From Desulfurococcales archaeon (GTDB taxonomy: Archaea; Thermoproteota; Thermoprotei_A; Sulfolobales; Acidilobaceae), in contig WANR01000018.1 of NCBI GenBank assembly GCA_015521705.1, forward strand, positions 1 to 64,000: DNA of 64,000 bases, read 5' to 3'. The position numbers were made by a program, and so were the translations under genes. Each line of letters starts with the position of its first letter. Positions within the stretch are counted from its first letter, which is position 1. Shown here piece after piece: positions 760-50,139 of this stretch. A model generated the notes under the pieces. It searched no databases. It was given only the letters and a program-made list of their open reading frames with translations, and was not told the origin of the DNA.

Positions 760-2879
760 CTAGTGGTTGCTTCTCAGTAGCCTTTTGAGGGCTCTATCCA
801 CTATTCTCATGGCTTCTTCCATGCTTTCACCAATGATCGATGCTACCTCGTTTAACGGCTTCCCCTGAACCACCCTAGCGATGACTGCTACCAGCTCAGT
901 ATCTTCCAGCGGTATAGGCCTCTCGCCAGCGATAACTCTTATGGTTTCGATCAGTACGACATCCATTACTTGCTCCAGGTCGAGCTCTCCACGCAGATAC
1001 TTTTCCAGGGCCATCCTCTGGCTTGGAAGCAGCTCTGCCCTAAAGCTTGCCCGGCTCGTGGATCTTAGTAGAGAAGCCATCTTCTCTGCAGCCAGATCCC
1101 TGTAGACGCTTGGGGCTGCCAGGAGTAGTCTGAGGGTTAGAGTTTTTGACGCCTCTCCAACAACCCTTTCACCCTTGCGTGACAGGGGCTTGGCCATTGC
1201 AATGTTCTTTTCCCCCGTAACCCTATTATAGCGGGGACTCACATAGTAGGGGATGTAGCCGTTACGGAGCCAGAATCCTATGACGTCGTGGCGCGAGAAG
1301 ATTGTCGTTACGACGTCGGCTCCCCGGGATCTTGCCCACTCTTCAATGGCTGCTAGGAGCTTCGAGCCGAGGCCCCGGCCTTGGAGCTCTGGGTGGACCG
1401 CTATCCTCGAGACTCTGAATGATGACAAGTTCTCCCAGTAGGGCCCTGCCATCAATTTTAGCTTCTCCAAGCCTATCCTTGCCGCCTCTTCAACTTTCCC
1501 GGACTCCTCTACCACGTCCGCTACTGCTACTATTACCCCTTCGTGGCGTAGAATGTGGGTCGAGTGGTGCGGGCTATCGAGTATAACTAAAAGCTCGTCA
1601 GGCGAGTTCCTATAGTGGGCCTGTGCGAGAACCCCGAAGACGCTTTCCAGTACTTCTCTGTCAACAAGCATGGCAGGGTCCAGGATCTCGTGTCTCACCT
1701 TTTCAGTACTAACAGGGCCTGGAAGCCTCTGGGGCTCTGCCTTAAGCATGAATGTCTCGTAAACCCATTCTTCCAATGGGTCTCCTTGAAAATACCTGAC
1801 TGGCTCGTTGAGCCTGCACTCTCCTATAGGCTTGGGCAGTAGTCTGGGCAGTATTCTCTCGAAAGCCCTGCCGCTTCCCTCGTATCCATGTATGGTAGTT
1901 GATACAATGATTTTTCCTCCCCTCCAAGAGAGCCTCCTAACCCGGGCAATCCCTACAGAGGCTGCCTCGTCCACCACTGTAAGTGGCCCCGGCTCGGCGG
2001 TCTCCGGAGTCTCGTAGCTTACCTGGAACCATGGTCCTGTTATTCTCACAACCTCTCCATCACCGTCTCTGGCAACCCTGCATTTATCGATAAGCCTTAG
2101 GGTTTCAAGCCCCTTCAGGACCCCTTCATGAGGCTTGAAACAGAGTAGGGTGTAGGCCCGACAATGACAGCCCTCCCAATAGACCCCCAATATATAGCCA
2201 GCGAGACCGCTAGCCCCACAGTAAAACTCTTACCCCTCCCTCTGTCACCCTTAACCATGAAACTCCTAGCCCTCCCCCTAATGAAGCGTGCAAGTCCTTC
2301 AAGAGCCTTTGCCTGGTCTATCGTCCTGGCAAGTGGCACTAGGGCTCGTGGAACACCTTCCAATTCTCCAGGCCATGTACGGCTTTCAGGCTCCCCTGGC
2401 CTGCCAACGTTAAAATTCTCCGAGACTATGGACCCCGACACAGCGTCTACCCATAGATGCGTCCTAGCCCTACGTATAGAGCTTAACAGGTACTTGGCGT
2501 ACAGCCCTCTTCCATGTAGAGGCGAGGGAGACCATTGCTCCATAGGAGGAGCTACAATAGCCAGGAAACCCCCCTTAGTAACAGTCTCGGCAAGACCAGC
2601 CACGATATTAGGCCTTATCAGCCCCCCGAGGCTTATGATAGCGGCTTTAAACTCGCCGCCGAGAACCCTCTCGAAACCCGCCGGACTAATCTCCCTTGCA
2701 CAGTACCCTAACCCTCTATACTTGGCTTCCGTAGCCAGGACACAGTTGCCACCTGAAAGATTTGAGAGGATACCAATAGCCTCGCTTCTCTTCTCAGTAT
2801 TAATCACTACTAAGCCTCTCCAACCAGTGGACTCAAGCCTGCCAGTAAACTCTTCCACAAACCTAGACCAGTCGCTCAT
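760..2879 (-). CDS. tmcA: tRNA(Met) cytidine acetyltransferase TmcA, reading frame interrupted by a one-base shift
   Basis: TmcA makes N4-acetylcytidine in RNA using ATP and acetyl-CoA. The 5' frame (2879-2115, 254 aa) carries the N-terminal TmcA domain and the Walker A motif GDRGRGKS (residue 211 on). The 3' frame (to 760) carries the helicase part with the DEAA box, the GNAT acetyltransferase domain (HPELQGRGLGSKLL) and the C-terminal tail. The two frames meet at a run of four G on the minus strand (2121-2124): frame 1 reads SSLMKGS-stop, the other continues GVLKGLETL, as family members do. A -1 shift or one additional G joins them into about 706 residues, a normal TmcA length. It may be a sequencing error, a mutation or programmed frameshifting. 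TTG/ATG start at 2879. Confidence 0.88.
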
Positions 2880-3331: not shown

Positions 3332-3505
3332 CTAGCCTATTATGTGGGCAGCTACCACCATGAATGCGAAGAGGCCTGCTAGAAACACTAGGGCTGTGGG
3401 TGTCATCTTTATCTTTCCTTCGTACTCGTCGTAGAATGAGATGAGGCCTGCTGCAGTCATTGGCCCCGACTGTCTCCTTCTCCTAGAGGACAAGCTTCCC
3501 ACCAT
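3332..3505 (-). CDS. secG: Sec61-beta subunit of the protein translocase
   Basis: 57-residue protein with the archaeal Sec61-beta signature: a basic SSRRRR tail, GPMTAAGLISFYDEYEGKIKM, then one C-terminal membrane helix (about residues 37-56). It is the small stabilising subunit of the SecYE/Sec61 channel, with its N-terminus in the cytoplasm. The frame is open further upstream, but that part bears no family similarity; ATG at 3505 gives the standard family length. It is transcribed away from the MazG-like gene, with which it shares a short AT-rich intergenic region. Confidence 0.92.
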   Translation of the reverse strand: MVGSLSSRRRRQSGPMTAAGLISFYDEYEGKIKMTPTALVFLAGLFAFMVVAAHIIG

Positions 3506-3525
3506 AGTACCTTTGTGGATGCCAG

Positions 3526-3545
3526 GGCAAATATATGTTAGCCTG
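3526..3545. promoter_or_regulatory. shared TATA-like element between secG and the MazG-like gene
   Basis: AAATATATG around 3530-3538 is the only AT-rich core between the divergent genes. On the minus strand it reads CATATATTT about 25-30 bases before the secG ATG. On the plus strand it lies about 45 bases before the TTG of the MazG-like gene. It can serve as TATA box in either direction. Confidence 0.4.
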
Positions 3546-3579
3546 GTAGTGGGCCCGCTATTCAATGGTGTAGCAGGTC

Positions 3580-3852
3580 TTGGGGAGCGTTTCATGTGTC
3601 CAGGAGGCTATGAGACTGGCGTTCTATGAAAGGAACCATAACAGAGGCATTTACGCCACGTTTGCATGGCTGGTAGAGGAGGTGGGAGAGCTAGCTGAGG
3701 CTCTACTAAAGGGTGATAGGAGGATGATAGAAGAGGAGATAGCCGATGTTATAGCATGGGCCCTGAGCATTGCTAACCTGGCTGGTGTGGACGCCTATCG
3801 CGCTCTTAAGAAGAAGTATGGTAGGGAGCTCGAGAGGGCTGGATGCGGCTAA
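3580..3852 (+). CDS. MazG-like nucleotide pyrophosphohydrolase
   Basis: 90-residue all-alpha protein with the MazG metal-binding pattern: WLVEEVGELAEAL (EExxE) at about residues 31-43 and EEEIADVIAW (ExxD) at about 53-62. Such enzymes hydrolyse (d)NTPs to monophosphates and are thought to clean nucleotide pools. The helix before the motif (VQEAMRLAFYERN) belongs to the family fold. That favours the TTG at 3580, the only start after the in-frame stop at 3571, over ATG 3610, which would clip this helix. The 3' end overlaps the converging thiDN gene by 4 bases. Confidence 0.82.
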   Translation: MGSVSCVQEAMRLAFYERNHNRGIYATFAWLVEEVGELAEALLKGDRRMIEEEIADVIAWALSIANLAGVDAYRALKKKYGRELERAGCG

Positions 3853-48212: not shown

Positions 48213-49067
48213 TTGGCCGGGTATAGGGTGGTTGTAGGTATTAAGTGGGTTCCGAATACTCAGGCTGTGAGATTCGATCCAAAGACAGGGACTCTTATCA
48301 GGCAGGGCGTGCCGGCCATTATTAATCCTCAGGATCTACACGCCATAGAGATGGCTTTGCGGCTTAGAGACGCTTATGGGGGAGAGGTTATTGTTATCAC
48401 GATGGCTCCTCCGCCAGCCGTTCAGGGGCTAGAGCATGCGATAGGAATGGGGGCTGACAGAGCTATACTAGTCACGGACAGATCGTTCGCTGGAGCTGAC
48501 ACTCTGGCTACGAGCTATGTCCTTGCAAGGGCCATTAACAAGGTGGAAAGGGAGATTGGCAGGGTAGACCTGGCCGTTTTTGGGCAAGAGACTATAGATT
48601 CCAGCACGGCCCATATAGGCGCCCAGGTGGCTAGCTGGCTGGGCTGGCCCTACATATACTACGTGAAGCAAGCTTCCCTATCTAATGGCAGTCTAAGGGT
48701 TGTCAGGCAGCTGGAAGACGTTATAGAAGAGTATGAGGCAAAACTGCCAGCGGTTATAAGCGTACTCGCCAAGGCTCTAAGGCCCAGGCACGTGAGTTTG
48801 CTAAATAAGCTCCGCGCGAGGACTGAAAGACCCATAATAACTTGGACCAATAAAGACCTAGGCTTAGACACTCGGTGTGTAGGGCTCAAAGGATCTCCAA
48901 CCATAGTAGCCAAGGTAACGTACCTCCCAGAGGTTCCCCGGCTTAAGAAGGTGCATAAGGCAGAGAACCCGCGGGAGGCTGCTAGGTGGCTCCTAAAGAA
49001 CCTGCTAAGCGATGAAAAAACTAGAGACCTTATAGCCAGGGCTCTTTGGGGTGAGGGCAGTGCCTAG
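48213..49067 (+). CDS. fixA: electron transfer flavoprotein beta subunit EtfB/FixA
   Basis: 284 residues: VVVGIKWVPNTQAVRFDPKTGTL, INPQDLHAIEMALRLRDAYGGEVIVITMAP, AIGMGADRAILVTDRSFAGADTLATSYVLARAI and DLAVFGQETIDSSTAHIGAQVASWLGWP. This is the ETF beta fold binding AMP or a second FAD; bifurcating members carry FAD here. Start TTG at 48213 after AAGGTGAAGGGGG. It overlaps fixB by 17 bases. Confidence 0.93.
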   Translation: MAGYRVVVGIKWVPNTQAVRFDPKTGTLIRQGVPAIINPQDLHAIEMALRLRDAYGGEVIVITMAPPPAVQGLEHAIGMGADRAILVTDRSFAGADTLATSYVLARAINKVEREIGRVDLAVFGQETIDSSTAHIGAQVASWLGWPYIYYVKQASLSNGSLRVVRQLEDVIEEYEAKLPAVISVLAKALRPRHVSLLNKLRARTERPIITWTNKDLGLDTRCVGLKGSPTIVAKVTYLPEVPRLKKVHKAENPREAARWLLKNLLSDEKTRDLIARALWGEGSA

Positions 49068-50139
49068 GGTTAAGTGTGAGGATCTCTGTCCCGAGTGGCC
49101 TTGTGAACAGCCAGAGGAGTTTAAGAACGTGTGGGTGTACGGAGAAATAGAGCCAGGTAGGGGGATAAGAGAGCCCAGCCTTCAAATGCTCACCCCAGCC
49201 AGGAAAATAGCGGAAAAGCTTGAGGGCAAAGTAGTTGGGCTACTTATAGGGCACCAGGTGACGGCTTACGCTGACGACTTTATAAAGTATGGGGCTGACG
49301 AGGTCTTAGTGGTTGATGATGAAAGACTCAAAGAGTACTACCCAGACGTCTATGGGCATGTCATAGTCCAGTTATCACTAAAGTACAAGCCTGAAGTTAT
49401 ACTGCTAGCGGCAACCATGAGGGGCAGAGAGCTAGGCCCCTACGTGGCTAACACACTAAGAGCTGGAATAACCGCTGACTGTACAGACTTTGATGTTGAC
49501 GAGAAGACGAGAGACGTTCTCCTGATAAGGCCGCCCTTCGCGGCAATAATGCTTGCATACATAAGGACGCCGTTCAGAAGACCCCAAATAGGCACTGCGA
49601 GGCCTAATGTTTTCCCATTACCTCCACGCGACGAGTCGAGGAGGGGCGAGGTTATACTAGAGAAGGTGGATATACCCAAGCCGAGGACGCGACTCTTAAA
49701 GAGGATAAGAATTGAAAAGAGAGAAGTGCCCATAGAGAAGGCAGAGGTTATAGTGTCAGGCGGTAAAGGCCTGGGAAGCCCTGAAGGATTCAAGCTACTC
49801 CAGAGGCTGGCAGACATGCTGGGCGGGGTTATAGCTGGCTCGAGAAAGGCTGTCGACGCAGGATGGATACCGCCTGAAAGGCAGGTGGGCCAGACAGGTA
49901 GATCGGTTAAACCGATCCTCTACATAGCTGTAGGTATAAGCGGCGCCGCGCAGCACATGATAGGCGTGAGAGAGGCTGGAAGGATAGTAGCTATAAACAC
50001 GGATCCCGACGCCCCCATAGTTAGGCAAGCCGACTATTCGATAATAGGGGACTATAGGGAAATAGTGCCGGCCATAATAGAGGAGCTAGAGGAGCTCAAG
50101 AGAAAGGGGCCAAAGGCTATAGAGGAGCTTCTCAAATGA
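49051..50139 (+). CDS. fixB: electron transfer flavoprotein alpha subunit EtfA/FixB
   Basis: 362 residues. N-terminal ETF domain (NVWVYGEIEPGRG... GADEVLVVDDERLKEYY), and the C-terminal FAD domain with GGKGLGSPEGFKLLQRLADMLGG, GQTGRSVKPILYIAVGISGAAQHMIGV and INTDPDAPIVRQADYSIIGDYREIVPAI. The extreme N-terminus has three cysteines (KCEDLCPEWPCE), an additional feature that could bind metal or be structural. Etf ABCX of this type from Pyrobaculum is known to bifurcate electrons from NADH to ferredoxin and menaquinone; that function is inferred here. Confidence 0.93.
   Translation: MRAVPRVKCEDLCPEWPCEQPEEFKNVWVYGEIEPGRGIREPSLQMLTPARKIAEKLEGKVVGLLIGHQVTAYADDFIKYGADEVLVVDDERLKEYYPDVYGHVIVQLSLKYKPEVILLAATMRGRELGPYVANTLRAGITADCTDFDVDEKTRDVLLIRPPFAAIMLAYIRTPFRRPQIGTARPNVFPLPPRDESRRGEVILEKVDIPKPRTRLLKRIRIEKREVPIEKAEVIVSGGKGLGSPEGFKLLQRLADMLGGVIAGSRKAVDAGWIPPERQVGQTGRSVKPILYIAVGISGAAQHMIGVREAGRIVAINTDPDAPIVRQADYSIIGDYREIVPAIIEELEELKRKGPKAIEELLK

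Follow-up and report, generated by a model that had tools for sequence, protein, structure and literature searches.

A TmcA-like gene divided between two reading frames

The window analyzed here is a 64-kb stretch of DNA taken from contig C18 of a draft archaeal genome (55 contigs, 82% complete), whose relatives include Acidilobaceae/Desulfurococcales MAGs. Near its start, on the minus strand, a gene of the TmcA/NAT10 family is divided between two overlapping reading frames. The features of this locus are as follows:

2115..2879, minus strand: N-terminal frame, 254 aa, of a TmcA-like paralog; it covers TmcA_N and enters the helicase domain for ~44 columns, far enough to take in the P-loop GDRGRGKS (Pfam PF08351, PF05127)
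760..2229, minus strand: C-terminal frame (-1), which completes the helicase domain (DEAA) and goes on through the GNAT domain to the C-terminal tail (Pfam PF05127, PF13718, PF00583)
2121..2124, minus strand: G4 run joining both frames into 706 aa (gap-free ortholog alignment, codon-usage switch)
2102..2141, minus strand: perfect inverted repeat of 10 bp, GTTTCAAGCC/GGCTTGAAAC, whose 20-nt loop holds the G4 run and the stop (repeat scan; fold z = -2.11)

The N-terminal frame ends in SSLMKGS-TGA, with its stop at 2117-2115, and the C-terminal frame is open from just after a stop at 2232 down to the stop at 762-760. Re-reading one base at the G4 run (2124-2121) yields a protein of 706 aa with one terminal stop, in agreement with the original prediction, which had placed the split at this run and arrived at the same joined length. 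A score for codon usage, with the remainder of the genome as its training set, favours frame 0 in the 120-nt bin centred near 2219 and frame -1 in the one near 2099. The alignment with orthologs is free of gaps across the join, which confines the shift to within a few bases of 2124-2118. The frame offset of one base in the deposited sequence is real, and it is ordinary in kind.

The G4 run is likely to be the site of, or a neighbour to, the loss of one base. The original prediction had one G re-read at this run; the one-base shift stands, but the loss of a G is uncertain. The residue that follows the glycine is Leu in 19 of 20 orthologs and Ile in the other, whereas re-reading a G in the window gene gives Val. 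Because the orthologs carry a CTN Leu codon here, the lost base is perhaps not a G: the alignment suggests that it may have been either a G or a C after the run. The run itself may be incidental to the break. On its coding strand the gene holds G runs of four or more in 18 places, five of them between 2236 and 2113, so that one in the overlap is unremarkable. Throughout the ~700 codons of the gene there is no second stop or indel.

The inverted repeat that encloses the run is one of five in the window with perfect 10-bp arms and a loop of at most 30; orthologs showed no fold of that shape at the corresponding position. It cannot serve as the usual downstream barrier to a ribosome, since its 5' arm lies upstream of the putative slip site and would sit inside the ribosome. 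It is a possible hot spot for mutation or for sequencing artefacts.

Identity of the gene and its paralogs

The TmcA_N, NAT10/TmcA helicase and GNAT domains all score above the Pfam cut-off, in the identical order to that of the TmcA/NAT10/Kre33 RNA cytidine acetyltransferases, and the motifs GDRGRGKS, DEAA and QGRGLG are all present in the joined protein. The best PDB match is 2zpa, E. coli YpfI/TmcA. The original prediction named the gene tmcA, which needs correction. Unlike the enzymes of that family, the window gene belongs to a shorter paralog group and is interrupted in this genome. A tree sets the ~700-aa group apart from the ~840-aa group, and the canonical copy is intact in the same genome (G000:C8:3492-5543; 839 aa). 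By sequence comparison, the window gene is a shorter (~700 aa), patchily distributed TmcA/NAT10-like paralog, and not the canonical ~840-aa archaeal TmcA/Nat10. In our tally of family genomes at least 90% complete, the short paralog is found in 10 of 25 and absent from 15, while the ~840-aa copy is near universal; the short paralog is therefore dispensable.

Part of the family carries two TmcA/NAT10-like paralogs per genome, as at G000:C8:3492-5543 and window 760-2879. A different arrangement occurs in G051, a one-contig genome of the same order, which encodes TmcA-like halves as intact ORFs ~195 kb apart and split at the domain border (TmcA_N and helicase, 399 aa, at L188:1708-2904; GNAT, 326 aa, at L187:821-1798). 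Full-length frames of 725 and 912 aa are also present in that genome.

Orthologs at the break site

Twenty orthologs of the short group have letters at the site. Every one is continuous without a gap, and none shares the break or a conserved shift signal. L185/L156, at 60% identity, and L186/L157, at 56%, are the nearest; both are intact, with AGG-GGG-CTG in the first and AGG-GGG-CTC in the second. The codon at the site is variable (GGC, GGG, GGT, GGA, ATG and GCT among others), some orthologs have no Gly there, and several have no G4 run at all (TCC-GGC-CTG in L160, AAG-GGC-CTA in L161). The original prediction had called for a comparison with relatives, and had named a relative with a continuous frame and no slippery sequence as evidence against itself; relatives of this description exist.

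The original prediction also held that the two halves show no other decay. This is correct for stops and indels, but four otherwise invariant residues of the C-terminal half are changed in the window gene, versus zero to two in each of the eight nearest orthologs, although one of the four, V254, hinges on the reading chosen for the join. These changes hint weakly at relaxed constraint. The end branch of the window gene in the tree is 0.55, versus 0.29 and 0.37 in the two nearest orthologs.

A scan for frameshifts across the genome

Every ORF of 80 aa or longer from 1.6 Mb of a complete relative (G012) was compared with 620 kb of the draft genome, of which 387 kb was covered. Once antisense shadow ORFs and a tRNA-like region had been discarded, the 387 kb aligned contained one clean sense-strand frameshift in a conserved gene, that of the TmcA-like gene. 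This indicates that the assembly is not rich in indels and that indel errors are infrequent, though a single residual error may still be present. The antisense shadow ORFs that we rejected lie at window 48923-49193 and in L120, L142 and L150, and the candidate at L116 3885 was set aside as a tRNA-like region, recognized by eye from its translation. A candidate at L116:7790-8115 (G000:C2), homologous to a 121-aa ORF of G012, is shifted in frame and also interrupted by an in-frame stop; it was rejected as a clean frameshift and is likely a decayed small ORF.

Slippery site and recoding signals

The original prediction laid emphasis on a slip-prone site, and this emphasis finds no support. The sequence is G-AAG-GGG, with no X-XXY-YYZ heptamer, and in a tandem slip a P-site tRNA-Lys would have to pair with GAA. 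A single-tRNA slip on GGG is the only slip possible at the site. The context that it needs is ubiquitous: of the 239 long ORFs of the genome (105,049 codons), 214 have nnG-GGG in frame, with 727 occurrences in all, and AAG-GGG is found 104 times in the same set. The joined gene alone holds 11 nnG-GGG, among them AAG-GGG-CTT only 12 nt downstream of the site. Folds of the downstream sequence are ordinary when compared with shuffles (z = -0.61 for 2119-2030 and z = +0.52 for 2115-2060), so that no stimulatory stem-loop is apparent there. Inspection of 2140-2125 revealed no purine-rich stretch resembling a Shine-Dalgarno element upstream, and the codon after the slip site, TCC, is not rare (12.3 per 1000 codons).

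Interpretation of the break

The original prediction listed sequencing error, fresh mutation and programmed frameshifting, and these are the right explanations to weigh. We consider it very probable that the break is a non-programmed loss of one base, through either mutation or an error in the consensus. Orthologs that continue across the break and an offset of one base, the marks of an indel pseudogene, are both found here. In these respects the gene is like the "fs-gene" singletons of GeneTack and prokaryotic indel pseudogenes (Antonov et al. 2013, PMC3711429), in which a single species has a one-base offset, and continuous homologs and a Pfam domain bridge the break without a conserved recoding motif. 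We see no notable difference from them. In that study such singletons are classed as products of sequencing error or of indel mutation (PMC3711429).

Between these two sources we slightly prefer a recent one-base deletion in a dispensable TmcA/NAT10-like paralog, to which we give an even chance. A recent deletion at 2124-2118 on the minus strand would interrupt the second TmcA/NAT10-like gene of this genome. Ribosomes would halt at the TGA at 2117, within the helicase domain, and the truncated product would have neither the DEAA motif nor any of the acetyltransferase. The gene would then be a pseudogene of recent origin, or else an allele broken in the population that was sampled. Presumably the deletion would then be present in the living genome and would abolish function. 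The continuity of the orthologs that span the site, together with the uniqueness of this frameshift in the aligned 387 kb, appears to support a recent mutation, as do the dispensability of the paralog, its longer end branch and the four changes at invariant residues. The surrounding hairpin is plausible as a hot spot for deletion. Against a recent mutation stand the want of a second lesion, so that any decay must be very young, and the position of the lesion: the draft consists of 55 contigs, and the lesion lies 2.1 kb inside the end of one.

The same two observations favour the alternative that the base was lost only in the draft consensus or its assembly, and that the living gene is continuous and encodes a normal TmcA-like protein of ~706 aa. 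We hold this to be a strong contender, a little short of even. The gene carries a coding signal on both sides of the break, the genome is incomplete and fragmented, with the lesion close to the contig start, and a perfect 10-bp hairpin lies at the site. Moreover, singleton frameshifts bridged by BLASTp are mostly sequencing errors according to Antonov et al. (PMC3711429). However, one clean frameshift in 387 kb aligned speaks for a low general rate of indel errors, and the run is only four bases long.

Programmed -1 frameshifting would have the P-site tRNA-Gly slip from GGG to GGG and so produce the 706-aa enzyme. Such a slip retains full pairing, and the coding signal is kept in both halves. 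If programmed, this would be a rare archaeal recoding case. The only reported cellular -1 programmed frameshift in archaea is that of fucA1 in Saccharolobus solfataricus (PMC8211752), which has an A-AAA-AAT site, a flanking stem-loop and tandem rare codons, and whose site sequence is kept among Sulfolobales (PMC8211752). The two genes are alike in layout: in each, two frames overlap at an offset of -1, and joining them gives a protein that matches full-length homologs. The relatives of fucA1 are also mostly full length (PMC8211752), so intact relatives alone do not decide against recoding. Unlike fucA1, the TmcA-like gene offers only the G4 run, without downstream structure, rare codon or conservation of the site sequence. 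The heptamer is absent, the slip context is commonplace, no ortholog shares the break or a signal, and the slip product would have Val where orthologs have Leu or Ile. We regard programmed frameshifting as very improbable. The narrower proposal, that a lineage-specific -1 P-site slippage at the G4 run in the hairpin loop yields low levels of full-length TmcA-like enzyme, a second cellular archaeal case after fucA1, earns equally little credence.

It is just as doubtful that the gene is expressed in two pieces, with the N-terminal piece ending at the TGA at 2117 and a second start giving a separate C-terminal polypeptide that acts alone or in cooperation. In the C-terminal frame, GGAGAGGTT, similar to an archaeal Shine-Dalgarno sequence, stands before a GTG at 2049, and the same-order relative described above has its helicase and GNAT halves as separate genes. 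However, those genes are split at the domain border, while the break here falls midway through the helicase domain, past the P-loop but ahead of DEAA. The only starts of the C-terminal frame near the stop are TTG 2190 and GTG 2049, and initiation at the latter would lose ~24 residues of the helicase domain.

We rejected three further candidates: a tandem duplication of 11 nt, TGAAGGGGTCC/TGAAGGGGCTT, likewise -1 modulo 3, whose removal would leave the protein four residues shorter than all orthologs in a place where the alignment is gap-free; a BHB-type intron, as nothing is inserted between the conserved residues and the fold, a plain hairpin, lacks two bulges; and transcriptional slippage, for which a G4 run falls far below the runs of A>7 or T>8 cited for it (PMC3711429).

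As it stands, the locus calls for a curation note: an often-absent second TmcA-like paralog is broken by one base in a draft, with the canonical enzyme intact. At 3332-3595 of the window, on the minus strand, a small ORF ends in one transmembrane stretch and contains SSRRRRQSGPMTAAGLISFYDEYEGKIKMTP; by eye, it resembles archaeal Sec61 beta.
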